Source: Candidatus Bathyarchaeota archaeon
Lineage (GTDB): Archaea; Thermoproteota; Bathyarchaeia; Bathyarchaeales; SOJC01
Assembly (NCBI GenBank): GCA_020351305.1
Contig: CP070730.1
Coordinates: forward strand, 815,333 to 872,404
Length of the DNA: 57,072 nt
Reading direction: 5' to 3'
Positions 16,200-35,830 of this stretch are shown piece after piece; the first letter of the stretch is position 1, and each line of letters starts with the position of its first letter. The position numbers and the translations under genes are program-made. A model generated the notes under the pieces. The model worked only from the letters and a program-made list of their open reading frames with translations. It was not told where the DNA came from and ran no database searches.

Positions 16200-17357
16200 C
16201 TATTCACTCACCTGTGCTGCACCTTTGCAGAGTAAGAACAGGGCTGCTGCAGTTGGTAGCTCCTTGTGCTGAACATGTTTAAATGGACCATAGGATGTGT
16301 CTCCTATTCTAAACTGGGGTGTTTCACTAATGTTTATCGTTATTTCTCCCTCTTTAAAGACTACTGCTTCCTTTAAAGGATCAAAGTCGCTTAGGTTGCC
16401 AAGAAGAACTTCTGCTTTCATTAAACCTGTTTTCCCATGTAGGCTTCCCCCCAATCGAATAAGGCGATGTGTATCTGTTGTGACAACTGTATCAATTTTT
16501 GCTGATTGCTGGTCCACAATCCACTGGATGGCTTTTTTCCAGTTTCTAACTCCCATGACTTTAATACTCATCCATTTTCTGTTTCTCAAGCTTTCTAAAA
16601 GCGAATCTTTGTTCTTGGCAAAAGACTCGATGGTGCGTTTGTCTAAACCCACTGTCTCGATTTTATTAGGTGGGGCTTTCATTAGAAATTTATATAGTCC
16701 ATTTGTGACGCGGGAACCATGCAACTCTACCTTCAATCCCAAGCCAATGATGAAATCAACTATTTCTTTTCGTGTCATGGAATCAAGCGAATGAATATTT
16801 TTTTTCTCGACATGAACGTGATAGCCGCGATGTCCACTGAAATATGCTTTCACTTCGTCATTTTCAAATCCAAAATCATACACCAACATGTTCACGAGTT
16901 TAATCATCTCATTTTTAGCGGATTCTAAGCAATCTTCGCACATCCAACTTTTAATTTCATATTTCGCTTCCCCACAATTCGGACATTGACTTGGAGACGG
17001 ACCTTTCCCACGAAAATCGCATTTGTAGCATACCCAGGTATCATGGAGCTTGTTGCATGGTGTAGGAATATGGTCAGCATCGATGTCAAACACCAAGTCT
17101 GCTCCTAGCCAGCCTTTTTTCTCCATGGGATCCTCTGGGTGCTCATAGTAGGCTGATGAGTAATAAACGTCAGATGGCACTTTTGATGCAAGGAAATCAC
17201 TTAGAGCACCTGAGTTTGTGAAGCTTCTGTGGCGAATCATGATGTTCTCTTTCAATGTAATGAGCCCAAATTCTCTTTTTTCCAGGGAAGGTGGAGTAAC
17301 AAGATGTTTTTTTTCTTTGTAGTATTTAGCGAATAACTTGTAAACAAGTTCGTTCAG
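16200..17357 (-). CDS. priS: DNA primase small subunit PriS, with 5' end in doubt
   Basis: The archaeal/eukaryal primase catalytic subunit is clear: LVFDIDADHIP holds the catalytic aspartates, CYKCDFRGKG and CPNC with CEDC form the zinc knuckle, and FSGHRGYHVHVE is the active-site motif. From TTG 17255 the protein would be 351 aa, but the same frame carries a family-like N-terminus upstream (LVYKLFAKYYKEKKHLVTPP, then LEKREFG). A TGA blocks it just before. The only codon available as start is CTG 17357, with GAGGG six bases ahead. Alternatively GTG 17370 was the start and one extra A near 17349 shifted the frame (MRDSTER then LVYKLF). I give CTG 17357. Confidence 0.9.
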   Translation of the reverse strand: MNELVYKLFAKYYKEKKHLVTPPSLEKREFGLITLKENIMIRHRSFTNSGALSDFLASKVPSDVYYSSAYYEHPEDPMEKKGWLGADLVFDIDADHIPTPCNKLHDTWVCYKCDFRGKGPSPSQCPNCGEAKYEIKSWMCEDCLESAKNEMIKLVNMLVYDFGFENDEVKAYFSGHRGYHVHVEKKNIHSLDSMTRKEIVDFIIGLGLKVELHGSRVTNGLYKFLMKAPPNKIETVGLDKRTIESFAKNKDSLLESLRNRKWMSIKVMGVRNWKKAIQWIVDQQSAKIDTVVTTDTHRLIRLGGSLHGKTGLMKAEVLLGNLSDFDPLKEAVVFKEGEITINISETPQFRIGDTSYGPFKHVQHKELPTAAALFLLCKGAAQVSE

Positions 17358-17542
17358 TTGAGTCCCTCACGCGCCCTTACATTAAGCATCTTAATTATGG
17401 CGATGAGTGTTTCTTAAGCATTCTCGAGACAATATATGCCTGCAAATTACTAAGAGAAGAAATCACGCATTCTTTTGAAATAGTTAAATTGGAAGGGACC
17501 TTTACATGTCTCAGTATTTACCAAGTTTCATGGTGGAATGTT

Positions 17543-20500
17543 GTGGGGAAACCAAGAAAGAGAAATCTCCTAGTTAAAATCCCTGTGATTATACTGTTTT
17601 TGATCTCTTTTGATTTTTTGAGCATGATACAATCGACCAAAGCTCAGCAGCATTCAACCACCGTTGAATGCACGCTTAGCAACAACATGGTTACATTAGA
17701 AAATGGGCATGTTTACTTGGAGATGAACCAAATAGGAGTGTGCATTAGTGTTTTGAAATTTGATCCAATCGGCTCCGGCAATTATGGGCAAAACGTCTTA
17801 GTCACTCCACAATCAAGGGATGCAACTGCAGGAGCCTTATCTACTCTGTATCATGCAGAAAATTCAACCAACGCTTTTGATCGGTTCTCTGCAATTTATG
17901 ACACTAACGGAACAAAGACTATATTCGTCGAGAACGAGGCCAACAAAGTTGTTGTTCATGTAAGTGAAATCGACATAGCCAATAAAGGTGGTGTAGTTAT
18001 TGGAGAAGAAGAATGGACTCTGACTCTTGAGAAGAACAAAAATTTCTTCCAAATTGATCGAAACTTCTTTTTGTTTAGACCTGTGAATGTGACAAACGTG
18101 GCAGTATTTCAAGGGTTCTTTAAAGAATCTTATGACGCAGCGATAATGAAAGGATCGGATGATGGGCTTCCGATGTATTACACAAATGCAGCCACACCAC
18201 CTTACATTTTCGAATACTCCATACTCAATGGAACTTCAAATGATCATGGTACAGGAAAAATTGCACGTACTACAGGATTGAATATTACAAAACTAGACCA
18301 TTCGGAGACTCTATTTAACAACACGTACTGGAATGGAACAGTATTTCTAGACTTTGAAAACCACCTTCCACCAGTTTTTGTGCGTGTGAAGGAATGGAAG
18401 CTATATGACGCATATTTCCAGTTCATGACGACAACTAGTGCCAATAGCGCGCCAACTTTCAAGGTTGGGTGGACACTATCATCCGCAAGGAAGGTGCTTA
18501 AGGCGGAAACATACTCTGGTGGAAGGCTTGAAATAGGCTTCTTTAAAGATGGGCTCTTAGGAGAAGTTTTGCCATTTGGGTTCCAGAAAGCTCCGGAATG
18601 GCTCATTACCTTGCAATGGAAGCTCTACTTCTCAATACTGATTTCAATGAATGGCAAAGGGAAAATTCTCCCTGATGCTAGAGATTACAAAGAAATGTTC
18701 ACAAGAGATACAGTGGGGGCGCTTATGGGATACCTGTATATGTCAGGGGCACAAGGAAAACAATTTGTACTAGACGCGCTCAATGAAATCAAGACCCGTC
18801 AGACCGTTGAAGGTATAATTCCAACAGCATTCACAGATTATGTTGATTGGAAGCAGGTTAGGTATACATCCAATATGGACGTTCAAGCTTGGTACGTTAT
18901 AATGGCGTGGCAATTTTACGTCCACACGAAAGATCAGCAATTTCTCCATGATTTTGCAGAAAGTCTCCGTAAGGCAGTCAACATCTTGCTGAGAGCTGAC
19001 GAAGATGGGAACTATTTGATAAATGCCCCCTCAGGCTATGCGAGCGACTGGGCAGACACAATAAAGAGAACTGGTGAACCTCTTTTTCTGAATAGTATGG
19101 CATGTTGGGCATTGAAGTGTATGGCAATGTTCGAATTAGCTTCCAAAAACTTCACTGGCTACAACTTCTACAGCGATTGGTTGGACAACCTAAGGTTTGA
19201 ATTGAATAAAGACATCGCTGACGGTGGCCTTTGGAACTCCAGCGGAGGCTTTTATTCAGCTTGGAGGTTTAACAATGGAACCGTGCGAACATACTTTGAG
19301 GTCGACAGTAACCTGTTGGCAGTAGTCAGTAGAGTTGCTTCTAAAAATCGAGCAGAGAATGTACTCCGCTTTATAGATGAACATCAAGAACTTGAAGCGA
19401 AAGCTCCTTGTAGAGTTCTTTTAGGTTTGTATAATCAAAAAGACATTTTGGTACCTGAATGGAATCCCTCCAATACATACCATAACGGTGGATATTGGCT
19501 TTGGATAGGTGGATATGACATTCTCGGGCGAGCAACAGCAAATCAAACATTAAGGAGTTTGGATATTTTGAAAAGGATTAGAGAAGCAGTGTTCAGAAAC
19601 TCTTCCGTCTACGAGTGGTATGATTCGCAAGGCTTTGGACGATGGGGTCAATCCAAATGTGAATGGTTTTCTTGGTCAGCTGGTTCAATTCTGTATAGCA
19701 TTTTTCATGGTTTGTTAGGGATTGAAGTAGGATATAATGGGATCCGAATTCGAGGTGAACTTCCATCAGGTTTAGGTGATGTTACGGTTAGGTTATTTTT
19801 TCGACAGACTAATTTCACAATAAACATTCATAGACATGGATATTACGTTTCGAGAATATTGATTGATGATGAGCTAGCAAACTCCTTAGTTATTCCGCTA
19901 AACAGCTACGATGAAGCTTCCCATACAATCGATGTTTATCTTTCCGAAAAACCATCAACTGATTATGTCTATTTGAGCAGCACCTTTCTGCCAGTTGCTT
20001 CAACTGATTTCTCGATGGATAATCGTTTAAACGTTACTTTTTCGATGGTTAATTTTACTGATGAGATCAAGTTCTCTGTTCCATGGAAGGATTCTAACAC
20101 AGCAGTGAGGTTTGATAATGGAACAATAAGGAATTTAAATAAAACCGGGCAGATTGTTGAATTAGTTTTGAACCCAGTAGAGATTCGAAGCGTAGAACTT
20201 ATGCATGGTCGTCGGCTATCAAAGGATGTAACTTTCTGGATGCCGGTCAATACGAAACCGCTTGAGATAGTCTTTGACGAATCAGGGTTTCTGAAGATAC
20301 GCTTTGACAATCAGGAGGAAGGACCTGTATTTTTTGCGCTTTATGTTGCTGAATATGGGATGCCTGCGAGGATTAGTATTGGTTGGGATATCTTTATGAG
20401 ATTGTGTGAAGATCTTAGGCTGTTGAAATCAGTAAACTATGATTGTTGGAATTTTAATAAACCAAACAATCTCGTGACTATCAAGACATTCTCTGAGGGA

Positions 20501-20623
20501 TCAGCGTTGCTAACTGACAAATGGGGCTTTGCCTATCCAGAGATCATTCCAGTAGTATTTTTAATTGTTTTTCTCTCGTTTGTAGTTGTGTTAAAATTCT
20601 TGGTATCCATAATATCAAAATAA
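17543..20623 (+). CDS. Secreted six-hairpin glycosidase-like protein with C-terminal anchor
   Basis: The protein has a basic N-terminus and signal segment (LLVKIPVIILFLISFDFLS), a beta-rich N-terminal part with many NxT/S sites, then a helical toroid with FTRDTVGALMGYLYMSGAQG (around codon 404 of the open frame), YASDWADTIKRTGEP (about 518) and KCEWFSWSAGSILY (about 723). This is the look of an (alpha/alpha)6 glycosidase (GH15/63/78-like), followed by a beta-sandwich and a final transmembrane segment (EIIPVVFLIVFLSFVVVL). The exact family and substrate are not known. The frame opens at TTG 17489, but GTG 17543 gives the better signal peptide. It leads into the surface-glycan region. Confidence 0.72.
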   Translation: MGKPRKRNLLVKIPVIILFLISFDFLSMIQSTKAQQHSTTVECTLSNNMVTLENGHVYLEMNQIGVCISVLKFDPIGSGNYGQNVLVTPQSRDATAGALSTLYHAENSTNAFDRFSAIYDTNGTKTIFVENEANKVVVHVSEIDIANKGGVVIGEEEWTLTLEKNKNFFQIDRNFFLFRPVNVTNVAVFQGFFKESYDAAIMKGSDDGLPMYYTNAATPPYIFEYSILNGTSNDHGTGKIARTTGLNITKLDHSETLFNNTYWNGTVFLDFENHLPPVFVRVKEWKLYDAYFQFMTTTSANSAPTFKVGWTLSSARKVLKAETYSGGRLEIGFFKDGLLGEVLPFGFQKAPEWLITLQWKLYFSILISMNGKGKILPDARDYKEMFTRDTVGALMGYLYMSGAQGKQFVLDALNEIKTRQTVEGIIPTAFTDYVDWKQVRYTSNMDVQAWYVIMAWQFYVHTKDQQFLHDFAESLRKAVNILLRADEDGNYLINAPSGYASDWADTIKRTGEPLFLNSMACWALKCMAMFELASKNFTGYNFYSDWLDNLRFELNKDIADGGLWNSSGGFYSAWRFNNGTVRTYFEVDSNLLAVVSRVASKNRAENVLRFIDEHQELEAKAPCRVLLGLYNQKDILVPEWNPSNTYHNGGYWLWIGGYDILGRATANQTLRSLDILKRIREAVFRNSSVYEWYDSQGFGRWGQSKCEWFSWSAGSILYSIFHGLLGIEVGYNGIRIRGELPSGLGDVTVRLFFRQTNFTINIHRHGYYVSRILIDDELANSLVIPLNSYDEASHTIDVYLSEKPSTDYVYLSSTFLPVASTDFSMDNRLNVTFSMVNFTDEIKFSVPWKDSNTAVRFDNGTIRNLNKTGQIVELVLNPVEIRSVELMHGRRLSKDVTFWMPVNTKPLEIVFDESGFLKIRFDNQEEGPVFFALYVAEYGMPARISIGWDIFMRLCEDLRLLKSVNYDCWNFNKPNNLVTIKTFSEGSALLTDKWGFAYPEIIPVVFLIVFLSFVVVLKFLVSIISK

Positions 20624-20688
20624 CATATTCTAGAAAATGTTAATCCTTGAACGGTTGCTATAACCATAGGGAGAAAGTTGGTGGGGCG

Positions 20689-23151
20689 ATGATAGTTATA
20701 TATTTACTGGGGTTGCTTTTCTTTCTTGCAGTTTTTGGGGAACTGCTTAGGTCTCTTGTAAATAAATTCACGCATTTATTCTCTGATTTAGATATAGTGC
20801 AAGCATTTCTTCTCGATGTATACTTAGGTGGTGCAATGCTTTACTCTTTAGCTCTTTTTCCTTTTCGATTGTTTGGTTGGTTTTTTGTTCAAACATTCTT
20901 CGTAATTTCGTTAACAGTGTTAATCCTCTTTAATTCTCGCAAATTTCTCTCAGGTAAGAGAGTGGTTGTGAGGAATAACATAACTGTTCATGCGATTGTT
21001 GTGATCCTGCTTTTTATGTTCATGTTCTGGGTGGTAACGCTGCCAATCGATAAGTTCGTTTTAGGAAGCATTCATGACACCTCACTTCACTCTCTCTTTA
21101 CTCAAGTGATAATCGAGAATGAGATGATTCCTCAAACTCTTCAACCGTATTTGCCAGAAGGGCTTGTTTTTCCACAAGGAGCCTCTGTGATTTTTGCATT
21201 AGCCACTTTTCTTTTTGGGTGGACTCCGGCAAAATCGGTTTTTTATTGCACTCCATTATTCATATCGATTTCTATTTTAGGAGCTTATTATTTAGGCCAG
21301 AAAATCTCGAAGAAGGCAAGCTTTGGGTTAATTTTTTCTATTGCGATTGGCTTTGTTGGCACTCATCCAAGGATCCTCACATGGGGTGGAAATAACTTTG
21401 CTGTAGCATTCCCCTTTTTCTTACTTTGCCTTGCTCTATTGATAGATATATTTTCATCTGCCTGTGAATTGCGAAAGAGAGAGGTGATAATTATCGGATT
21501 GCTGTTCGGCTACCTGGCCTCAATATATTTCACTGCCTTCATGGTTATCGTGATTTCACTTACATTATGGCTTGTTTATGCAATGATGCTTAGGCAAGGA
21601 GATGGGGTCAAAAGGGTAAAAATTTTCTTAATAATTCTCATATTCAGTCTTTTGCCAATTATTCCAAATATATTTAAATTCGTGATATGGTATCCCTACC
21701 CAGGTCACAATATTGGTTTGCCAAGTGATGTTACGGCACGTTCGATTTGGGCATTTCCTTCTCCCCTCTGGCCATTTGAGATAATCAGAGATTACAGCTA
21801 TCCCCAGCTTTTCAAGGCGATGATATTCATTCTTTTAGTTTGTGGCATCCTTAGCTTAATTTTTAGTAAGCCCTTAAAATCTAGACTCTCAAAAAACATC
21901 CTCATATTGATTGGATGCACTTTTGCGATTCCAGAAGCCTTGATAATTCTTTCATGGCATTTTAGTTTCTTAAGGATGATTACGGGAGCAACAACATGTG
22001 TTATCCTATTTGTTTCATTAGATTTGCTTGTTGCTTTTTTTGCCTACGACATCTTTAGTTCATTTGGTCGTAGGATTAGGGCATTTCCTGCTGGGAGACA
22101 TAAAATCCGTGCGTCGTTGAGATTTTCTTTTCTTCTTTATGTGATGTTAATGCCTTTCTTTTTCAACGCGCTCTACGTAGACTCTGAATTACTTGTTTCA
22201 CATTACAGTGCCTATGCTGTGACTACCCAAGACGACTATGAACTAATGCTTTGGATGAGAGACAATCTTGATGATGATGCACAAATATTGATTAACTCAT
22301 TTGACGCAGGTAATTTTGTATCTTCCATTGCTCAAAAAGCCTCAACCTATCCCTTCACTTGGAGCCAATCGTCACAAGCATACGGAAAACTAGTTGAGAA
22401 TATTCATCTTGGGAGATTTACTAGCTCTGAATACATAACTATGGAAAGGCTGGGCATAACTCACGTCTTTCTTGGCTCGCAGTCCAGTTTTTGGTGGATC
22501 GGAGATAAAAATTGGTATCCAAGATTCTTCACTTCAAATCCAAATTTTAAGTTGTCTAAAAGTGTCGGTGGGGCTTATCTTTACGAATTTCAGCTAGTGA
22601 ATCCAAATTGGATATTTTTCGATAGTTTTGAGTATTCATTTCTCACTGGCAGTGGGTGGAGAGTATACAGCCCAATGGAGATTGCAGAGAATGGCGAAGG
22701 ATACATAGGAGTTGGCTCAGCTTATTCTTATGATGGAACAAACAGTCTTACGACCTTTACCCGAAAGGTCACTGGCGACATTTTTTGGATTTCTGTAATC
22801 AAGGAGGTGTATTTGGGTGATTACGAAGGAGCCAGTGATAACATTGAGCTGTGTTTTTTTCTGAATGCATGTTTAGGTTTTGGTGTCAATGACGCCCTAA
22901 TGTTTGTAATAAGCTCAGGAGATTGGCGAGATCAGCTTTTTTTTAGCACTTCTAAGCAAATTGCGGTGAGAGAAGAGCTGATTATTCTTGCAAATGGTAG
23001 TGGAGTCAACAAGTTTGATCTGAGTAGGATGTGGAGTGAAAACTATGGAGCTTCACTTCCGAATGCATTTTTCATTCAAATTATAAATCACGATGCAGAT
23101 GAGGTTCCGAATCTTGGCTATGTAGATTTTATTCTTCTATCGCGAGATTAA
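20689..23151 (+). CDS. Multi-spanning GT-C-like membrane protein A with extracellular C-domain
   Basis: The 820-aa protein has about a dozen hydrophobic helices up to codon 510, then a soluble part. An extracytoplasmic loop near codon 141 of the open frame carries GSIHDTSLHSLFTQ, resembling the acidic catalytic loop of GT-C sugar transferases (STT3/PMT/DUF6541-like). After YAVTTQDDYELMLWMRDNL, the STT3-like end domain, comes a beta-rich jelly-roll-like region (DSFEYSFLTGSGWRVYS). It is paralogous to the protein at 24436-26925 over its whole length. It likely uses lipid-linked sugar outside the cell; donor and acceptor are unknown. ATG 20689 matches the paralogue start better than TTG 20647. 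Confidence 0.7.
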   Translation: MIVIYLLGLLFFLAVFGELLRSLVNKFTHLFSDLDIVQAFLLDVYLGGAMLYSLALFPFRLFGWFFVQTFFVISLTVLILFNSRKFLSGKRVVVRNNITVHAIVVILLFMFMFWVVTLPIDKFVLGSIHDTSLHSLFTQVIIENEMIPQTLQPYLPEGLVFPQGASVIFALATFLFGWTPAKSVFYCTPLFISISILGAYYLGQKISKKASFGLIFSIAIGFVGTHPRILTWGGNNFAVAFPFFLLCLALLIDIFSSACELRKREVIIIGLLFGYLASIYFTAFMVIVISLTLWLVYAMMLRQGDGVKRVKIFLIILIFSLLPIIPNIFKFVIWYPYPGHNIGLPSDVTARSIWAFPSPLWPFEIIRDYSYPQLFKAMIFILLVCGILSLIFSKPLKSRLSKNILILIGCTFAIPEALIILSWHFSFLRMITGATTCVILFVSLDLLVAFFAYDIFSSFGRRIRAFPAGRHKIRASLRFSFLLYVMLMPFFFNALYVDSELLVSHYSAYAVTTQDDYELMLWMRDNLDDDAQILINSFDAGNFVSSIAQKASTYPFTWSQSSQAYGKLVENIHLGRFTSSEYITMERLGITHVFLGSQSSFWWIGDKNWYPRFFTSNPNFKLSKSVGGAYLYEFQLVNPNWIFFDSFEYSFLTGSGWRVYSPMEIAENGEGYIGVGSAYSYDGTNSLTTFTRKVTGDIFWISVIKEVYLGDYEGASDNIELCFFLNACLGFGVNDALMFVISSGDWRDQLFFSTSKQIAVREELIILANGSGVNKFDLSRMWSENYGASLPNAFFIQIINHDADEVPNLGYVDFILLSRD

Positions 23152-23173
23152 AAAAAGAGAGGTAGAGGATCTG

Positions 23174-24175
23174 TTATGGGGGCTTTGGCTTTTTCCATCC
23201 ATATACGATTGCAGCGAATCCCATGAATACAAAGCCTAGACCGAATAGTATCCACGCGAAGGACTGTAAATAGGTAGCTTCTGACTGTCTCATGACAGCA
23301 TTAGCTTCTACCATTGCTGCGTCTGCTTCTGTCTGAGCCGCTTGACCTAAAGCGTTATAGTAGTTCGATTGGGAATTGAGCGAGTTAAGGTCAGCATCTT
23401 CGATAGCTACACCTCTAGTAGACTCAGCGTCAAAAGCGAGGTCAATTAGATCGCTTGCATTCTGATAATGAGACTTAGCTGTAGTAAAATCTCCAAGCAT
23501 GTAGCGGGTTGCACCTGAAAAGAATTCAATCCATGCCTTTCTCAAATGAAGTTGTGCTTCTGTACTCCTGAAATCTGCAGGGTCAATCATAGGTGGAACA
23601 TAAGGAGGATTTCCCACAAGTAGGTACTGCAACTCCTGAAATTGAAGTTGTGCATCTGCTTGATCTTCTGAGTATACGGCGAAGTAATAGCCAGAATAGG
23701 TCCAGATTATATCCTCTTTCCCAGAGGCATTGACGTTGAATACTGCTATCTCATATCTGTGAAGTATAAGGTTTGATACAGTGTCTGGAATTGAAAAATC
23801 AATCATGAAGTATTCGTAATCATAATATTCTAGTGTGAATGGATTAGTCTTGGTCATGCCGTAATCTGTTGAATTAACATATTCATCCGTGTCCATCCAA
23901 TCAAAGTTTATGCCTACTGCGGATATGTTGGCTGTTTCATATAAATAATACCAGCCGGTAGGAAACATGAAGCCATAGTTGTAGACTCCTAGTCTCACTG
24001 TTCCATTGCCGCCTTGCTCATAAGCAGTTACATATGTGCCATAGTATTGATCCATCCCTCTATAGCAATATCCTAGAAAATATACGTCAGAAATAGACGC
24101 TTGGGTTTGAGTAACTTCTAATGCCGAAGCCAGGATGACTATTGAAAGAATGCATACCATCAGTATTTTTCGCAT
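23174..24175 (-). CDS. Secreted membrane-anchored protein, unknown, between twin GT-C genes
   Basis: From ATG 24175 the 333-aa protein begins with a signal peptide (MRKILMVCILSIVILASALE). A Tyr-rich beta-like ectodomain follows (YYGTYVTAYEQGG, GWYYLYETANISAVG), then an Ala-rich helical part (AQTEADAAMVEANAVMRQSE) and a C-terminal transmembrane helix with a short KKPKPP cytoplasmic tail. I do not recognise the family. The frame is open to 24274, but the signal peptide decides the start. It lies between two paralogous GT-C-like genes and may be a substrate or partner of that system (inference). Confidence 0.6.
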   Translation of the reverse strand: MRKILMVCILSIVILASALEVTQTQASISDVYFLGYCYRGMDQYYGTYVTAYEQGGNGTVRLGVYNYGFMFPTGWYYLYETANISAVGINFDWMDTDEYVNSTDYGMTKTNPFTLEYYDYEYFMIDFSIPDTVSNLILHRYEIAVFNVNASGKEDIIWTYSGYYFAVYSEDQADAQLQFQELQYLLVGNPPYVPPMIDPADFRSTEAQLHLRKAWIEFFSGATRYMLGDFTTAKSHYQNASDLIDLAFDAESTRGVAIEDADLNSLNSQSNYYNALGQAAQTEADAAMVEANAVMRQSEATYLQSFAWILFGLGFVFMGFAAIVYGWKKPKPP

Positions 24176-24435
24176 ATTTGATCCTGAAGCAGCGTATATG
24201 CCTATGTTTTTGATATATGCTTTTCGATACGATTTCCCAACATCAACAAGCTCATGCACGTATGGATTCAGCAAAACGTTTTTTGTTGTGTCGGATTTCG
24301 TATCCGTTACGCAGGTGACTCAACTCTTTGCTTCTAGCGTTTTCGGAGCGCGCGTGTTTATCGTATGTGTTAGAACTTCAGGTTTGCCAAAGGATTTTAA
24401 GCGCTTCTTTTAGCTTGCACGCACGTACATCGTCT

Positions 24436-26925
24436 CTATTGCGAAATCATTAGTGAGTCCAGAAAAGCAAGATTTGGTACTCCATCAACATCTAAATTCC
24501 TTATTTGTAAAAGCAACTTGTTGGGCAAATCAGAGCCGTATACTTGAAACCAAGATTCACTCAGATTAAAAATAAAATTTCCTTCACGGTTCTCTAATCT
24601 AAACATTCTAGTTTGATTCAGATTCCAGTTTTGGAAAAGACTGTTGGGAGTTGCAAAGCAAATAGACATGTTGGCCCAAATGTTGGAAACGACAATTGCA
24701 ATGGCATCCAATTGGCCAAAACCTGAACTCATATTAAGATAAAAGGACAATGTGACATTAGAAATGTCATCCAGGTATACTTCTCTTCCAGCTTGTAGTT
24801 CATAAAAGTACAGACTTTCTAAGTCACCATTTGCTTTGTTTGTGGCGTTGAGAAACAAGCAACTATCTCCATTCATGGATGTAATTTTTACCTCACCAGC
24901 TCCTAAACCTCTTTCACCCAGCGCCCATCCTACATCCATTAAATTCTCATAATCAAACTCGTCTAAAAGAGCGATCTTCGGATCAAATAAAGAGGTCTCA
25001 AAAAGATAAGATTCACCGAATTTCTTCAGAAGCTTGAAGTTCGGGTTGCCTAGAAAAATCAGCGGGTTCCATTTATAGTCTCCTGACCACCAGTAAGTGG
25101 CATAAGCCCCAACGAAAATGTGTGTAATGTTATAGCTTTTCATTAACTCAAATGTTGTCAGGTTAACTATGTCCTGCGAAAGTAGATTTGCGAGTCGTTG
25201 ATAATCAAACGCGCGCTGACTTGCTACGTAAGGGAAAATCGCTACACGATGTGATGTTGAAGGAACGAAAAGTCCAGCTTCAAAAGGATTGATTAAAATT
25301 GTTGAGTTCTGTGGCAGATTATTTTTCATCCAACGCATCAATTTGTAATCGTCTTCTGTTGTTATTGCAAATAGGCTATAGGCGCCAGCAAGGCTTGGGG
25401 CGTCTGTGGCGAACCTGCTGTATATAAATGGGATGTTTATAGCTGCAAAACTTGTAACCGTTATCAGAAAAACTGCGTGGGAACGTTTAGAAAATACTTT
25501 TAGCAGCAGATTAAGGTCACGATTTTGGAGGAATAGGGCTAGTTTATTATGAAAAACAACGATAGAAGCAGATAAAGGAACTGTGAGAATTATGCTCTGG
25601 TGTGGCCATGAGATTACACTAAGATCTGCTGGTAGAAAATAAGAAATGAAAGATAACAAAGTACTTGAAAAGAAAATAGCTGCCATAAAACCCAGAACTT
25701 TCTTAGTGCTTGTGCCCTTTCTAACCTTCCAAAGCAAAAAACCAAGACCAACAAGGAGACCTATCAACTCTACTCTGAGAACTGGATTTGGATTTAAATT
25801 TCCCAAAGCCCACTCCAACGCTTGAGTCAACTTTGGTTGGAATTTTTCATAGCCCATAAAGCCAGAAGCTATTCCAATGTTGCGACCTGGGTATTGGAAA
25901 AACATGATAAATCTACTTAAGAATGAACTCAAAGGGAGTACACTAGCGAAAAGAATAAGCAGGAAGCTCTTTAACATACTTCGAAGAGATTTGGTCTTTC
26001 GTATATACCCATAAATCAACCAAAAAAAACCAATAATTGTCAAAGCTTCCAGGTAGGAGATAATAATGACTGCTGAATAGCCAAATAATATTCCAGTGGC
26101 AATAAGCTCTTTAGGACCATTCTTTGCTTTAGAGTGTATAATAGAAAAGAACAACCCTAAACAAACAAGAAACAATGGAAACCCTGTGATAAATGGATTT
26201 GCTCCCCAAGTAATGTACAAAGGCCAACTGGAGACGAAGGCAAAAACAAAGCTAAACCCCAAATAGTGACCTCTGTTACTCCACATCTTTTTCCCTAGAA
26301 AATAGGCTCCAAGCACAGACAAAGCATTGAAAAGTGGTGTAACATAGAAGACTGCTTTAGGGGCTTCATAGCCTATGGTGTGGGAAGCGTAAGCAAAAAT
26401 AACATGAGATGCTTGAGGATAAATGATTCCCTCGGGCAGATAAGGCTGTAAAGTCATAGGCACTAAGCGATTTTCTAATATAACCTCAACCATGAGCGAA
26501 TGCAATGATGTATCATGAATACTCCCAAAGACAAAATTAACTAAGGGGATGAGTTGAATCCAAAGAAGAAAAGAAAACATGGCAAGGACAAGGACATAAT
26601 CAAATATCTCCATTTTGTGTTCCATTAAGTAGACCCGAAACTGGTTAATCGAGTCTTTATGGAGACGCCTTAGATGAATAGAAAGGGAGATAAAGAATCC
26701 AATAATAGTCAATCCAATAACGATCGACCTCTCAAAGAGCTGCAAAGGCAGCATGGCAATAACAAACAAAACTAATCCCCCGAGGTAAACATCTAGTAGG
26801 CTTTTTTGCAAAAGATCTAAATCTGCGAAAAATTTGAGACGCCGAAGGAAGAGAACTCTGAGGGGTTCTCCGATAACTATCAAGAAAATCATCAAAGCCA
26901 ACAGCTGCAGCAAAAGAAACAGCAT
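24436..26925 (-). CDS. Multi-spanning GT-C-like membrane protein B with extracellular C-domain
   Basis: This is the paralogue of the gene at 20689-23151: the same order of membrane helices, the same loop GSIHDTSLHSLMVEVILEN near residue 135, the same LQPYLPEGIIYPQ stretch and the same FAITTEDDYKLMRWMKNNLP region after the last membrane helix. The C-terminal beta-rich domain (DEFDYENLMDVGWALGERG) is also shared. The pair face each other across a 333-aa secreted protein. Glycan transfer or lipid-linked sugar polymerisation outside the membrane is the likely role. It may be co-transcribed with the upstream GT4 gene (gap 45 nt). Confidence 0.7.
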   Translation of the reverse strand: MLFLLLQLLALMIFLIVIGEPLRVLFLRRLKFFADLDLLQKSLLDVYLGGLVLFVIAMLPLQLFERSIVIGLTIIGFFISLSIHLRRLHKDSINQFRVYLMEHKMEIFDYVLVLAMFSFLLWIQLIPLVNFVFGSIHDTSLHSLMVEVILENRLVPMTLQPYLPEGIIYPQASHVIFAYASHTIGYEAPKAVFYVTPLFNALSVLGAYFLGKKMWSNRGHYLGFSFVFAFVSSWPLYITWGANPFITGFPLFLVCLGLFFSIIHSKAKNGPKELIATGILFGYSAVIIISYLEALTIIGFFWLIYGYIRKTKSLRSMLKSFLLILFASVLPLSSFLSRFIMFFQYPGRNIGIASGFMGYEKFQPKLTQALEWALGNLNPNPVLRVELIGLLVGLGFLLWKVRKGTSTKKVLGFMAAIFFSSTLLSFISYFLPADLSVISWPHQSIILTVPLSASIVVFHNKLALFLQNRDLNLLLKVFSKRSHAVFLITVTSFAAINIPFIYSRFATDAPSLAGAYSLFAITTEDDYKLMRWMKNNLPQNSTILINPFEAGLFVPSTSHRVAIFPYVASQRAFDYQRLANLLSQDIVNLTTFELMKSYNITHIFVGAYATYWWSGDYKWNPLIFLGNPNFKLLKKFGESYLFETSLFDPKIALLDEFDYENLMDVGWALGERGLGAGEVKITSMNGDSCLFLNATNKANGDLESLYFYELQAGREVYLDDISNVTLSFYLNMSSGFGQLDAIAIVVSNIWANMSICFATPNSLFQNWNLNQTRMFRLENREGNFIFNLSESWFQVYGSDLPNKLLLQIRNLDVDGVPNLAFLDSLMISQ

Positions 26926-26970
26926 CGGTCCTTCCTCAAAGTTTTATCATCGGATGCTTTGCTTAAAAAA

Positions 26971-28065
26971 TTAGTGTTTGTTTATAATCTTGCGGTAAAT
27001 CTCCAGAATTTTGTCTGAATATTCTTCCCAGCTGAGAGAAATACTCTGATTCTTACCAACTTGTGGAGGGGATCTCTTTGTAGCCCTTAAAATGGCACCA
27101 GCAATTGCTCTTGGATTAAGTGAGTCTACTCCCTCAGCTAATCGCTTTTCTACAATATTTGCAGTGGCCCCGGAATTTCGCACAACTGTTGGAATTCCTA
27201 TTAAGATTGCCTCATGTATTACTCTGCTGAAGCTTTCCAAGTTTGAAAGCGAAACGAAAACTCCTGCCTCAGAATATTCTTTTAACAATTTTTGTCGTGA
27301 CAGATTGCGTTTCCAGTCCACGTAATCCTGTATGCCTATTTTAGCCGCGCGCGATTCTAGTTGCTTACGTTCTGGCCCGTCCCCCACAATTACCAATTTA
27401 AGTAATTTTCTTCTCGTTTTCACGAGATATGCAAAAGCTTCTAAGAGTTTTCCAACATTTTTGTATTTGCGTAAGGTTCCAACATAAAGGATTCTAGTAG
27501 GTTGCTTGGGGGTCCATTTCATAGATTGAAGTTCTGTGAGAGACAATGCTTCTCGGAGTAGAATAACATTCCTGCAATTAGGGAAGTCTTCATGAATTAT
27601 TTTTTCTTCGTATGGCGAGTTAGCAATAACAAAATCTGTGCGCGTAAAGACCAAGTCGTTGAGTGAATGCTTATAGAGACTTAGTAAAAAATTTCGGATT
27701 CGAGTTTGCCCGAATTTATGGTAATGTGGTTGCAGTATCAGTTTTTGCCTTTTCTTTGATAATGCTACGAAAGTTGGTAAAAGAGTGTGTGCATTATGGA
27801 TATGAATTATGTCAGCCCTGTCTCTTTTTATTGCTTTAATAAAGCTTGGTGGGGGAAGATAGAGAGGATCTCCGACTAGAGGCTTGAATCTTCTGACGTG
27901 AACTCCATTTACACTTTGTTCTTTTGCTACCCTCATATCGAGATCCAATGAATAAACAGTTACAGGGCATCCTTTCTCAACAAGTAATTCGCTTAATCTC
28001 GCTACAAAAGTTTCTACACCTCCCAGGTTAGGGAGGTAGCGCGGTGTGACCTGCAGAACTTGCAT
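26971..28065 (-). CDS. GT4-family glycosyltransferase
   Basis: The 364-aa protein is a GT-B fold transferase: N-terminal YLPNLGGVETFVARLSELL, a DIIHIHNAHTLLP strand, then TRILYVGTLRKYKNVGKLLE and the nucleotide-sugar site of the GT4 group (SNLESFSRVIHEAILIGIP with the E-x7-E acidic pair). It should transfer a sugar from a nucleotide donor on the cytoplasmic side. Donor and acceptor cannot be read from the sequence. It lies 10 nt after a GT2 gene and before GT-C protein B. Confidence 0.9.
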   Translation of the reverse strand: MQVLQVTPRYLPNLGGVETFVARLSELLVEKGCPVTVYSLDLDMRVAKEQSVNGVHVRRFKPLVGDPLYLPPPSFIKAIKRDRADIIHIHNAHTLLPTFVALSKKRQKLILQPHYHKFGQTRIRNFLLSLYKHSLNDLVFTRTDFVIANSPYEEKIIHEDFPNCRNVILLREALSLTELQSMKWTPKQPTRILYVGTLRKYKNVGKLLEAFAYLVKTRRKLLKLVIVGDGPERKQLESRAAKIGIQDYVDWKRNLSRQKLLKEYSEAGVFVSLSNLESFSRVIHEAILIGIPTVVRNSGATANIVEKRLAEGVDSLNPRAIAGAILRATKRSPPQVGKNQSISLSWEEYSDKILEIYRKIINKH

Positions 28066-28075
28066 TGTTCCCTAC

Positions 28076-28984
28076 CTAGAAGCTTGTAATTGCAGTTTTT
28101 GTGCTTTTTACTGGTTCCCAAGCGTAAGGTATTTTTCCATTCATAAGGTTTAACTTAGCCATTAGATAAGCCAGCCCTTCTATAATCGCGCCTAGAAAAC
28201 CGTAGGGAATTTCGTCAAGTTTTAACATTGAAACAATCCAAGCAATATTCCTAAAATCAGACGTTGATACTACAAAATCAGTCATTTTCCGAACTTGCAA
28301 ATGCCCAGTCCAAATTCTTTTCCGTTGTTTAAACAAGTCAATCAAACTTGTTGGGCACCGTATGAATACTACGGCATCTGGGGCATAGGATATTGCATAT
28401 CCCTGTTTACGAATAGACAATTCAATATAAGGTTCATCAGTTGCTATGTGCTCTGGAATTTCCCTTAGGCATTCTGTGCGTATTGCACAAAGCTCCGCAG
28501 ACAGCTTTGGTGCTTTGTAAAGAGAAACGTAGTGATGTAATTTCCAAACAATATGAACAATTCTGTTGGCAACCCCAATAATTTTATTTAGTGGAACTGG
28601 TCGTGCAAATGCTGCACCGACCTTCTCATTCTGAAGATTTAGGATTAGCTTTTCGATACTTCCATGCTTGGGCAAAGCATCTCCATTAACAAGGATGAGA
28701 AAGTCAACTGACGCCGCTAGTCTGAAAATTTTGTTAAGAGCGTTAGCCTTTCCTTTACGAAATTTTTCAACAACAAGTTCTATTCGTGCATCACTCTTAC
28801 ACAACTCTTTGACTATTTGTGGAGTTTTATCCGTGCAACCAGAACACACAACTAGTATCTTACTGTTACTTGGCAAATTTTGTTTTTTAAGCAAGGTGGA
28901 AAGAAGTTTTCCAATGTTATTCTCCTCATTGTAGGCACATATCCCTACCAGGATTTTCTGATGAAATCCGTTAGAGAACAACAT
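28076..28984 (-). CDS. GT2-family glycosyltransferase
   Basis: This 302-aa protein opens with ILVGICAYNEENNIGKLLS, the GT2 nucleotide-binding start, and has a ILVNGDALPKHGSIEKLI stretch that takes the place of the DxD loop (NGD). Later PEHIATDEPYIELSIRKQG and KQRKRIWTGHLQ (a R-x-x-R-W-like motif) fit processive or chain-extending GT2 enzymes. A weakly hydrophobic end may bind membrane. It forms a run with the GT4 gene. Confidence 0.88.
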   Translation of the reverse strand: MLFSNGFHQKILVGICAYNEENNIGKLLSTLLKKQNLPSNSKILVVCSGCTDKTPQIVKELCKSDARIELVVEKFRKGKANALNKIFRLAASVDFLILVNGDALPKHGSIEKLILNLQNEKVGAAFARPVPLNKIIGVANRIVHIVWKLHHYVSLYKAPKLSAELCAIRTECLREIPEHIATDEPYIELSIRKQGYAISYAPDAVVFIRCPTSLIDLFKQRKRIWTGHLQVRKMTDFVVSTSDFRNIAWIVSMLKLDEIPYGFLGAIIEGLAYLMAKLNLMNGKIPYAWEPVKSTKTAITSF

Positions 28985-29121
28985 ACATTCAAACTTCCGC
29001 TAGTATCAAAGTTTTAGTGTAAAATAATACACGCAGGCTTAAAACAATTAAGTTATTCTGAATGAACGGGCTTGTTAATATGAAATAATGCGTAAGCGTG
29101 TGTGCAGTTTGCAGAATTTTT

Positions 29122-30024
29122 TTACTTAAGGATTCTCCTATTTGCCAGCAGTTTGGTTTTCATGATGTATGAAAGAAATCCTTGAAATTCAGCTTTGGTT
29201 AGTTTTGATTTTCCTTTCTTTCTGTTTTCAAATGTTATAGGTATTTCTTTAACCTTGAATCCTCTAGTCCAAGCCTGTTTAACTGTTTCTATCTGTATCT
29301 CGTATGTTTGACTGTGAAGATATCCAATGACGTTCTTTACGTAATTCTTCGAATAACATCTAAAACCACTTGTACAGTCGCGGATTCTCATTCCAACCAT
29401 CGTAGACGCAATGAAGTTTGCTACTCGACTAATTAGCCACCGCATAATGTGCCACCCAACAATTCTGCTGCCTTTACGGTATCTACTTCCAATTACCAAA
29501 TCATAGCCCTTTTTTCCAGTCGCAAGTAGCTTTGGGATGGTCTGTGGATTATGGGAGTAATCTGCATCCATGGTAATAATGTACTCAGGGCAATTCTTTA
29601 GCGATAAAATTGCTTTGAACCCATCTGTTATAGCAGTTCCTAACCCAAGTTTGGCAGGTCTTTGAAAGATTAGAATATTGCCATATTCTTTTTGGAGTTT
29701 CTCTACAATACTCGCGGTTCCATCATAGCTGGAGTCGTCGATTACCATGATTAAAGAACTTGGCTTTAAGCTCTTAATCTCTCTTATAAGGTTCTCAACA
29801 TTGCCTGCTTCACAGTATGTTGGGAGCAAGATTGCAACCGAAGGGTTTTCTAATAATCCCGCAGGTTTACTTGAAAAGGACAAAATACGTGAACCATACT
29901 CCATAATGCCGCGGGAAAGCACTTCTTGGTTCAAACCTTTCACCAAATTCCGTGAAGCAATCTTCAGATAAAGCTCTATAACGCTTAGTTTTGTTATATA
30001 AGTTTGTTTATAATAATTGTGCAA
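29122..30024 (-). CDS. Dolichol-phosphate mannose synthase-like GT2 (DPM1 type)
   Basis: The catalytic domain begins VAILLPTYCEAGNVENLIREI, followed by MVIDDSSYDGTASIVE and the metal site TMDADYSHNP. The acceptor part has DLVIGSRYRKGSRIVGW and CTSGFRCYSK, all marks of DPM1-like enzymes that load a sugar onto polyprenyl phosphate. There is no long membrane domain at the end. About 60 residues precede the fold; ATG 29904 (MEYGSRIL) is an alternative start. Its product would be a donor usable by the GT-C-like proteins nearby. Confidence 0.92.
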   Translation of the reverse strand: MHNYYKQTYITKLSVIELYLKIASRNLVKGLNQEVLSRGIMEYGSRILSFSSKPAGLLENPSVAILLPTYCEAGNVENLIREIKSLKPSSLIMVIDDSSYDGTASIVEKLQKEYGNILIFQRPAKLGLGTAITDGFKAILSLKNCPEYIITMDADYSHNPQTIPKLLATGKKGYDLVIGSRYRKGSRIVGWHIMRWLISRVANFIASTMVGMRIRDCTSGFRCYSKNYVKNVIGYLHSQTYEIQIETVKQAWTRGFKVKEIPITFENRKKGKSKLTKAEFQGFLSYIMKTKLLANRRILK

Positions 30025-30235: not shown

Positions 30236-30991
30236 TCATTCTACTTCTATGCGTGGAGCTAGATAGAATGTAAGTTTTCCTTCTTTTGGCTGGTGGAAGT
30301 CGATTTGTATGGGCATGTCGTTGGCGAATTGGAGTGTTGCTATTTCGCTAGTGGCTGAGGCGGCTTTTATTATTTCAGCGAGGTAGCTGAGACTGAATGT
30401 TGCTTTTGATGGCTCTTGAGTTTGGAGGTCTAAAAGAGCGTCAGAATTTTTTTTAAGGGTTATTGTAGCTCCCATGAGGTCTCCGGTTGCGTTGAGGGTT
30501 AGTTTTTCGGTGTCCACCTCAATACGTACATGGTCGCTGACAAGTTGGGCGTCTTCGATGGCTTGGCGTAAGCCTTCAGTTGTCGTTTTGGCTGTGGCTT
30601 TGAAAGTGATTTTGGGGGTAGGTGTTTCTTCTTCTTGGGGCTCAAGGGTTGGCATGTTAAATGTGCGGGTATAGTGACCAGTTATGCTAATTTGCAGACG
30701 GGCAGTTTCAGGATTTAGTGTTAATTCAATGATTTCATCTTTGGCTGTTCTGCGAAGGAGTTTGAGGAATTCAGTTATGTTTACGCACATCTTTTGGGGT
30801 TGGTCGCATTCGTATTCGTCGAAGATGGTTTTGGGCCACAGAAAATCTATCATGGCAACTCTGCTGGGGTCCATTGCTCGGAGTTGGATGTTGTCTGGCG
30901 TGAGTTTGAAGGTGGCTTCATCTATAAGTATGGCAATAGCTTGAAACATGTCTCGAAGGAGCTTGGCATCTGTCATCTTAACCTTAAACAA
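30236..30991 (-). CDS. pcn: DNA polymerase sliding clamp PCNA
   Basis: The 251-aa protein forms the ring that holds DNA polymerase. Marks are TDAKLLRDMFQAIAILIDEA at the start, IQLRAMDPSRVAMIDF, and the C-terminal EIATLQFANDMPIQIDFH and LTFYLAPRIE. I place the start at TTG 30991 (MFKVKMTDAKLL), which matches the usual MFKA opening and has AAGGTG about 9 nt ahead; the frame also allows GTG 31003. Confidence 0.96.
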   Translation of the reverse strand: MFKVKMTDAKLLRDMFQAIAILIDEATFKLTPDNIQLRAMDPSRVAMIDFLWPKTIFDEYECDQPQKMCVNITEFLKLLRRTAKDEIIELTLNPETARLQISITGHYTRTFNMPTLEPQEEETPTPKITFKATAKTTTEGLRQAIEDAQLVSDHVRIEVDTEKLTLNATGDLMGATITLKKNSDALLDLQTQEPSKATFSLSYLAEIIKAASATSEIATLQFANDMPIQIDFHQPKEGKLTFYLAPRIEVE

Positions 30992-31030
30992 TGTAAATGT
31001 CACACCTTGGTTGGTTAGGTAGTGTAAACC

Positions 31031-33706: not shown

Positions 33707-35830
33707 TTATTCTTTCTCTTGGCTTGATCTGAGCCTGTGATGAATGAAAACAAATAAACCGACAATTGCTAGTGATAGTATTAGGGCTGCAGTCACGAAG
33801 TGGCTTGTTTCTGTTATGAAGCCACCAATGGACACGATTTCTGCTATTTTCAATGTGACGAGATTATGTGTTTCAACTGTTCTTGGTTCTTGGAAGTTGA
33901 GAGTAGTCGTTCTGTAGGGTCTTTGGTCTATATAGACAAAAATCCTATAATTGCCCCCAATTAGCCCCACGAATCTTGCAATGCCGTCTTCTCTGGTGTT
34001 TGAAGATGAAAGTGTTATACCCTCCCGTTCTAAAGTAATGTTCGCGTTAGGTATTCCCTGGCCAAAATAATCTAATACATTAATGTCGAGAGTGAGATTA
34101 TAGAGTTTGCAGTAGACTATGAAGTTTGTCGGGTGGGTCGAATTTATGAGTAGGGTGCTTGTTTTGTTCAGGAGCACCTCATCTTTGGAAACGTGCACTA
34201 TGTACTTTCCGAAAGTCAAATTGAAGGCAACTTCTCCACTTGGACCAGTGCTTTCTGTTCCTACTAAGCCACTTAATCCGATACCCCAATCATAAACATT
34301 CACCTGTGCGTTTTGTAATAGTGCCTTGTTTCTATCCAGGGCTTTTACGATGAGTTCAAGAGTTGGAGCTGTTGCGTTAAACCAGGTTGTAGAGGTTAGG
34401 TTTATGGTTGTTGTTTTGAATGGTTGGTTATAGCGGCCTGCTCTTATAGTGTAGTTGGTGTTAATGAAAAGATTTCGAAGTGTAGCTATGCCCGTTAAGT
34501 TGGTTTCAGTGGAGGTTAACTGTTTGATCGTTGTGTTTGTTCGGGTAGTGTAGGTGAAGTTTGCACTGACACTAGCAAAGGGGAGCATATTACCATCTGC
34601 GTCTTCCAACGCTACGTTGATGTTAGCAAGAGAGCAAGTGATGTTGATTGCTGAATTTCCAGTAAAGTTGCTAGCTAATCTTATTTCTGAAATTGTGCTT
34701 ACTTGTGAATTATTTAGGAATGCAGTGAAGGTGTAGTTTGTCGCTTCCAGGTAGAAGAATGTCAGTCCATCTTTGTTTGTGGTGTTTATGCTTACAATAG
34801 ATGTAAAGGTATCGTTAGCTTCCACAGTTATTCCTTTCACAGGTTCGTTGTCCAAATTAATCGCCTTAACCTCGCAGGTGAAGGATTTTGGGGTTATTAC
34901 AAAAGTTTGGTTTTCGGGCACAGGTTTTTCGGTTCCTAAGGGAGTAATTCGGGTTACATTCACTAGGTATACTCCCATACTGGCATTTGCGGGAATCATC
35001 CAGTTTGCATTGATTACCCCTCCAGATTCTGATGCGTTGATAGTCGAGGAAGTAAAAACGGCTTTTCCATTGTAGGCGATTGTTACTTGCATTATATCAG
35101 TTGGCAAAGTATAGTTCACTGCTTTAGTATTTACGACTTGAAACCGATGATATTCCAAAGCATCAGTAAGACCCACGGTGAAGGTTCCAAGGGTTTTATT
35201 TCCTGTTATGTTGAGAGTTATGTTGTAGGTGCCAACAAAGAATGTGTGTGGATCTGAATTAAAATCCTTAGGATATGTTTTGTTTATTTCGCCATAGCCA
35301 TCTGATCTTGTAGTTATATTGAATGTTGGGCAAGAATGATCCTTCTTAGCGGGGTTTACCACTGTGATGTTAGCAGATGAGACAGAGATTGGCTTTCCAC
35401 CTGTGATTATGGCTAGAATTGTGGCATTTTCACCTTCTTGATAATAAGGTTTGGCGGCTTTTACAATATACTCTGTCCTGACGATGAAGTTTAAGGCAGT
35501 GCTGGTAATGTTTGCTTCTATATCTCTCAAAGAAACTGTATGATCTCCCTCTGTGCTGTTGGGAACTAGAAATGAATCTTCAACAGTTGTTAATGTTGCG
35601 TTCCCCTCTTGAACAGGAAGCCCATCGAACAAAATTTCATACGCGCCATCCGTTGTATTAATTTGTCCAGTTAGCCTAACAAGGTCTCCGACACCTCCTG
35701 CGTATTCAGAAAGTAGGCTTATTGATACTTCAGCAGAAACATGCGGGATAGTCCAAGTTGTAAAGAATGTCAAGGTGAGTAGAATAATTAACAAAGCTCC
35801 AATCTGATTTACCCACTGTTTTTTATACAA
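33707..35830 (-). CDS. Large surface protein with repeated beta-sandwich domains
   Basis: The 707-aa protein has a signal peptide (IGALLIILLTLTFFTTW), many NxT/S sites and no enzymatic motif. Several Ig-like or carboxypeptidase-regulatory-like domains repeat: GKYIVHVSKDEVLLN, GIARFVGLIGGNYRIFVYID and similar 'A-F-L-NYT-I' segments. It ends in a transmembrane helix (HFVTAALILSLAIVGLFVF) and a short basic tail. It is exported and stays anchored, perhaps an S-layer-associated or adhesion protein. N-glycosylation sequons suit the nearby glycan genes. Confidence 0.75.
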   Translation of the reverse strand: MYKKQWVNQIGALLIILLTLTFFTTWTIPHVSAEVSISLLSEYAGGVGDLVRLTGQINTTDGAYEILFDGLPVQEGNATLTTVEDSFLVPNSTEGDHTVSLRDIEANITSTALNFIVRTEYIVKAAKPYYQEGENATILAIITGGKPISVSSANITVVNPAKKDHSCPTFNITTRSDGYGEINKTYPKDFNSDPHTFFVGTYNITLNITGNKTLGTFTVGLTDALEYHRFQVVNTKAVNYTLPTDIMQVTIAYNGKAVFTSSTINASESGGVINANWMIPANASMGVYLVNVTRITPLGTEKPVPENQTFVITPKSFTCEVKAINLDNEPVKGITVEANDTFTSIVSINTTNKDGLTFFYLEATNYTFTAFLNNSQVSTISEIRLASNFTGNSAINITCSLANINVALEDADGNMLPFASVSANFTYTTRTNTTIKQLTSTETNLTGIATLRNLFINTNYTIRAGRYNQPFKTTTINLTSTTWFNATAPTLELIVKALDRNKALLQNAQVNVYDWGIGLSGLVGTESTGPSGEVAFNLTFGKYIVHVSKDEVLLNKTSTLLINSTHPTNFIVYCKLYNLTLDINVLDYFGQGIPNANITLEREGITLSSSNTREDGIARFVGLIGGNYRIFVYIDQRPYRTTTLNFQEPRTVETHNLVTLKIAEIVSIGGFITETSHFVTAALILSLAIVGLFVFIHHRLRSSQEKE

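Follow-up and report, generated by a model that had tools for sequence, protein, structure and literature searches.

Here we report an analysis of a surface-glycan locus in a 57,072-nucleotide stretch of DNA (the window) from Candidatus Bathyarchaeota archaeon (assembly GCA_020351305.1, contig CP070730.1), covering positions 815333-872404 of a one-contig genome of 1.87 Mb. The locus holds seven genes, all present as full open frames at the positions listed below, and centres on two paralogous GT-C-type proteins with many transmembrane segments, each ending in a beta-domain. It is bounded on one side by PCNA (30236-31003) and on the other by a gene (16200-17255) presumed, from its sequence, to encode the primase small subunit. 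A first-pass annotation, made by a model from the letters alone, had described the region as a surface-glycan locus with GT-C-like proteins; the present results support the locus assignment and, through a profile match to the oligosaccharyltransferase STT3, the transferase type.

Gene content and the conserved cassette

The genes and features of the locus are as follows.

17489-20623, + strand: glycosidase of (alpha/alpha)6 type with an N-terminal signal and a C-terminal membrane anchor, as predicted by family scans and hydrophobicity
20647-23151, + strand: GT-C paralogue 1, DUF6541-like, on a long branch; probable start at 20689
21064-21096, + strand: GSIHDTSLHSL loop of paralogue 1, located by motif
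22594-23148, + strand: C-terminal beta-domain of paralogue 1, located by module comparison
23174-24274, - strand: secreted, C-terminally anchored protein, probably a bystander
24436-26925, - strand: GT-C paralogue 2, a DUF6541 protein and, of the two, the one that matches the conserved cassette
24439-24990, - strand: C-terminal beta-domain of paralogue 2, jelly-roll-like in the model
26494-26526, - strand: GSIHDTSLHSL loop of paralogue 2 with Asp138, aligned to the loop-1 Asp of STT3
26971-28065, - strand: GT4 glycosyltransferase, conserved cassette member by family scan and neighbourhoods
28076-28984, - strand: GT2 glycosyltransferase, conserved cassette member that co-occurs with GT-C
29122-30024, - strand: DPM1/AglJ-like GT2, probable polyprenyl-phosphate sugar synthase by its nearest NCBIfam models

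What is conserved is a cassette of four genes, for an AglJ/DPM1-like GT2, a further GT2, a GT4 and a GT-C protein. GT-C matches at E 1e-10 or better were found in 17 of the 256 genomes of the class Bathyarchaeia. Thirteen of these, at E about 1e-74 or better, were counted as strong; the four weak ones (G137, G024, G033, G039) were left out. The GT2 encoded at 28076-28984 is likewise present in 13 class genomes (E 1e-70 or better), and the two proteins occur together in 11 (Fisher p 1e-15, with relatedness ignored). In a phylum sample of 398 genomes, GT-C is found in seven, all in the same order; a Candidatus Bathycorpusculum metagenome-assembled genome (class Bathyarchaeia) is, by the kinship given in the search, a relative in the same order as the window genome. 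A scan of viral contigs returned no relative.

The neighbourhoods of 12 relatives were fetched, 11 strong and one weak, four of them contigs shorter than 8 kb. Close partners of GT-C in these loci are the GT2 (8/12), the GT4 (7/12) and the DPM1-like gene (4/12); the presumed primase gene lies on the far side in three (L033, L038, L039), and PCNA is also present in L038. The search for the same neighbourhood, as had been proposed, thus returned a repeated gene neighbourhood and not scattered genes. The order DPM1-like, GT2, GT4, GT-C is met again at the same chromosomal position in several families, while most genomes are without GT-C, and we regard the unit as a patchy cassette. Some relatives have nucleotide-sugar (rml) genes and flippase-like genes nearby, among the latter one of MOP type upstream of the L034 cassette. 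Genes of the archaeosortase/exosortase family were also observed near the cassette and the presumed primase gene (L033:4105-5226, L038:12385-13452, L039:13338-14459); the scan of window genes recognised none.

The product of 29122-30024 has its best NCBIfam matches to AglJ, the enzyme that starts the lipid-linked glycan, and to dolichyl-phosphate hexose transferase, all below cut-off. It is not AglJ itself, because it falls far below the equivalog cut-offs (75 against 325 bits for AglJ). Its nearest models point to a probable synthase of polyprenyl-phosphate sugar, and no membrane-spanning segment was found in it.

The remaining genes stand outside the cassette. The glycosidase and paralogue 1 form a separate two-gene unit on the opposite strand, a local addition, in which the glycosidase lies directly upstream of paralogue 1 with a 23-base gap. 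It carries N-terminal and C-terminal hydrophobic segments, matches GH100 in part above the Pfam cut-off, and aligns with chitobiose phosphorylase at E 3.6e-5, Asp523 falling on chain Asp492, which we take to be the catalytic residue of that enzyme; its matches to the (alpha/alpha)6 families GH100, GH94 and GH116 are partial only and permit no family assignment. The first-pass annotation had counted the glycosidase and the secreted protein as parts of one system, which the distribution of neither bears out. The glycosidase occurs in one of the 256 class genomes, with weak partial similarity in eight others of the 398-genome phylum sample at a looser cut-off (one, G014, in the same order), and was rejected as a conserved trimming enzyme. 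The secreted protein is probably a bystander: it is found in 32 of the 256 class genomes, many without the cassette, and in four of the 13 GT-C genomes (p 0.06, or 0.17 leaving out the window genome), and no cassette gene stands beside it in any of nine relative loci read for about 1.5 kb on each side. Two of its loci (L048, L049) adjoin genes that neighbour this region in L033 or the window. As an acceptor for the system it was rejected, showing no association with GT-C.

Relation of the GT-C proteins to STT3

The two paralogues align end to end at 33% identity (E 1e-140) and share the loop GSIHDTSLHSL, as had been noted for them. A broader form of this loop, GS[IV][HR]DxxxH[SA]L, occurs in all 12 proteins read (the two window paralogues and 10 relatives), as do both WG.N and GS..D...H; the loop characterises the family as a whole and does not set the twins apart. 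Going by the family alignment, paralogue 1 probably starts at the ATG at 20689. The proposed comparison with DUF6541 (PF20176) placed paralogue 2 above the Pfam cut-off (50.5 against 29 bits) and paralogue 1 just below it (27.2 bits in the protein scan), the latter reaching 29 bits and being listed above the cut-off in a genome scan together with its frame neighbours; by these profile matches, found in seven of 10 GT-C members, both paralogues belong to or border this family. A recent tandem duplication of the twins was rejected, as paralogue 1 has a branch length of 1.82, an open placement in the tree and a warning of long-branch attraction. Among the papers searched, none mentions the name DUF6541, and a search on Bathyarchaeia glycosylation listed nothing on point.

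To relate the family to STT3, as the first-pass annotation had suggested, an alignment of 10 GT-C proteins was compared by hhalign with one of 19 of the 21 Bathyarchaeal STT3 proteins, giving a probability of 97.5% (E 6.6e-12) against 0.43% for reversed STT3, 0.45% for reversed GT-C and 0.09% for a flippase from the neighbourhood. The transmembrane part taken alone matched at 78.8% (E 1.6e-5), more weakly than the soluble part alone at 92.8% (E 4e-7), with reversed controls at 0.24 and 0.39. The similarity to STT3/AglB/PglB (GT66, PF02516) covers the first external loop, the membrane region and the start of the soluble domain. Within the first external loop, Asp138 falls on the Asp of STT3 SEFDPY, and an acidic residue is present there in 12 of 12 GT-C proteins; passages of PMC6801728 describe the loop-1 acid as the catalytic residue class of GT-C enzymes. 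Taken together, the profiles indicate a GT-C enzyme distantly related to STT3.

The window proteins differ from STT3, AglB and PglB in two motifs. WWD, from WWDYG, was found in 0 of 12 GT-C proteins, its place reading NPFEAG in the soluble-part alignment of paralogue 2. Likewise, 0 of 12 matched the pattern used for the second acidic motif, which is DDE in these archaea; in paralogue 2 its place reads TWGANPF. No GT-C member of the 10 scanned matched PF02516 at E up to 5, the only matches being DUF6541 and two weak DUF families. The portions of PMC3703281 dealing with these motifs have them bind metal and recognise the Ser/Thr of the sequon, the metal being held by the second acidic (DDE) motif (also in parts of PMC6801728). 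With neither motif present, glycosylation of N-sequons by the GT-C proteins is unlikely.

That role can be expected elsewhere in the genome. The statement that no STT3 is seen is true of the locus and false for the genome, which has two AglB/STT3 (PF02516) genes far away (G000:C1:1211869-1213053 and 1744988-1746055), both carrying WWDYG; of 20 searched relatives, 19 have one such gene and one has none. With two AglB genes present, the organism should carry out ordinary N-glycosylation, and the cassette would probably supply a further pathway.

The C-terminal beta-domain

A further difference from STT3 is the extra domain formed by the last ~185 residues of the GT-C proteins, which lies outside the DUF6541 match (ending near residue 642). 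It is an independent module, because one GT-C fragment (L043:2-1810) carries two copies in tandem; the only copies in the window genome are the two at the locus. No Pfam family matched it. A structure model of the module alone is beta-rich (predicted template modelling score, pTM, 0.66; mean predicted local distance difference test score, pLDDT, 62, and below 50 over the first 59 residues), in support of the extracellular beta-domain originally proposed. In paralogue 2, nine N-glycosylation sequons lie in the C-terminal region and none in the membrane part, which fits an outside location; paralogue 1 has only one in its C-terminal region.

The modelled domain is jelly-roll-like, with no close relative. 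Its structural neighbours include the carbohydrate-binding modules (CBMs) CBM61 (E 1.4e-3), CBM8 and CBM15. Alpha-L-fucosidases, suggested by PDB profile matches, were rejected as relatives at E 0.25, and ciliary proteins, xyloglucanases and CBMs reached middling fold scores, none being accepted. As the best structural neighbours are a mixture at middling scores, a lectin role is only plausible. A domain of this kind is less unusual for GT-C enzymes than had been claimed, as sections of PMC7341804 and PMC11127046 describe two CBMs in EmbB and one in GT136 ORF12, respectively, both GT-C enzymes. EmbA/B/C, AftD and GT136 ORF12, which belong to three-component systems, share with the window proteins a GT-C core and an extracytoplasmic beta-sandwich domain (both predicted here, from profiles and model), and a lipid-phosphate sugar donor supplied by another enzyme is counted as a further likeness; they differ in that the window system is archaeal and its proteins gave no sequence match to PDB chains. 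Systems that combine a lipid-linked donor, a GT-C enzyme and a CBM are thus already known; the one described here is an archaeal variant, STT3-like, lacking WWDYG and bearing this particular beta-domain.

Proposed pathway and alternatives

With moderate confidence, we read the locus as an exported-glycan assembly cassette ending in an STT3-related GT-C transferase that acts outside on surface glycan. This reading builds on what was computed, namely that the profiles relate GT-C to STT3, that the Asp aligns, that the STT3 motifs are missing, that the cassette is conserved and that the last domain is beta-rich. In the pathway that we infer, with its donor, sugar, flipping, acceptor and direction of transfer, the AglJ/DPM1-like enzyme would, in the cytoplasm, load a sugar onto dolichyl phosphate. 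The GT2 and GT4 would work either on this lipid-linked glycan or on a partner of it, and a further enzyme would flip the product across the membrane. Outside, Asp138 of GT-C would catalyse transfer of a sugar or short glycan from the lipid carrier to an acceptor that the jelly-roll-like domain at the C-terminus would hold. As the GT-C proteins have neither WWDYG nor the second acidic motif, this acceptor would probably be growing surface glycan or the glycan of a glycoprotein, not an N-glycosylation sequon. Paralogue 1 and the glycosidase may extend the product with another kind of sugar and trim it, a local elaboration suggested by a divergent GT-C and a private glycosidase 23 bases apart on the opposite strand.

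Several results weigh against this reading. The full-length structure model of paralogue 2, built from three alignment rows, has a pLDDT of 36, so that the GT-C fold is assigned from profiles only, and sequence searches of solved structures (PDB chains) matched no GT-C enzyme. The family profiles compared were those of STT3 and a flippase, which makes STT3 a relative and not the established nearest GT-C kin, and a distant single member (L044) gave no STT3 match (0.6%). The structural matches of the beta-domain are middling (best Z 7.6) with mixed folds and do not prove sugar binding. The DPM1-like gene is near GT-C in only four of the 12 loci, though several contigs end early, and no flippase was seen among the window locus genes scanned.

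A more far-reaching proposal, which we put forward tentatively, is that one lineage of STT3 relatives acquired a lectin-like domain and, being without the N-sequon pocket and the STT3 metal motif (through loss or from the outset), now serves as terminal transferase of a second, AglB-independent pathway of surface glycosylation (O-linked or glycan-to-glycan) in some Bathyarchaeia, encoded in a patchy cassette beside replication genes.

How much is transferred is the point at which the closest alternative departs. The missing STT3 metal motif would favour one sugar from a monophosphate donor, and kinship with STT3 would favour transfer of a whole glycan, as by a non-canonical oligosaccharyltransferase or ligase moving a dolichol-linked glycan to a non-sequon acceptor (S-layer Ser/Thr or lipid). 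The latter is consistent with an STT3 match across both membrane and soluble parts, with three adjacent cytoplasmic glycosyltransferases that could build a short lipid-linked glycan, with the resemblance of the DPM1-like enzyme to AglJ, and with the flippase-like gene near L034; given that the DDE motif and WWDYG are both found in 0 of 12 proteins, we judge it rather unlikely. More doubtful still is a Wzy-like polymerase, in which GT-C would join lipid-carried repeat units into a surface polysaccharide trimmed by the glycosidase. The rml and flippase-like genes near relatives and the anchored glycosidase adjoining paralogue 1 would suit such an enzyme. Against it, Wzy-type enzymes have a different fold, the scan of window genes recognised no machinery for repeat units, and none of the other genomes among the 256 of the class has the glycosidase. 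That the GT-C proteins are transporters or flippases, as their many transmembrane segments might suggest, is very improbable, as their profile matches that of STT3, with alignment of the catalytic Asp, and does not match flippases from the neighbourhood.

To our knowledge, archaeal glycan attachment other than by AglB is poorly known. The patchy cassette with its STT3-related DUF6541 GT-C protein is a concrete candidate for such attachment in archaea; for DUF6541 it suggests an activity that can be tested, with Asp138 as the candidate catalytic residue.

Elsewhere in the window, 33707-35830 encodes a sequon-rich surface protein (4.7 per 100 aa) with a carboxypeptidase-regulatory-like domain, a possible glycan acceptor, and 54769-56526 a zinc carboxypeptidase (M14) with a dockerin type I domain, also sequon-rich.

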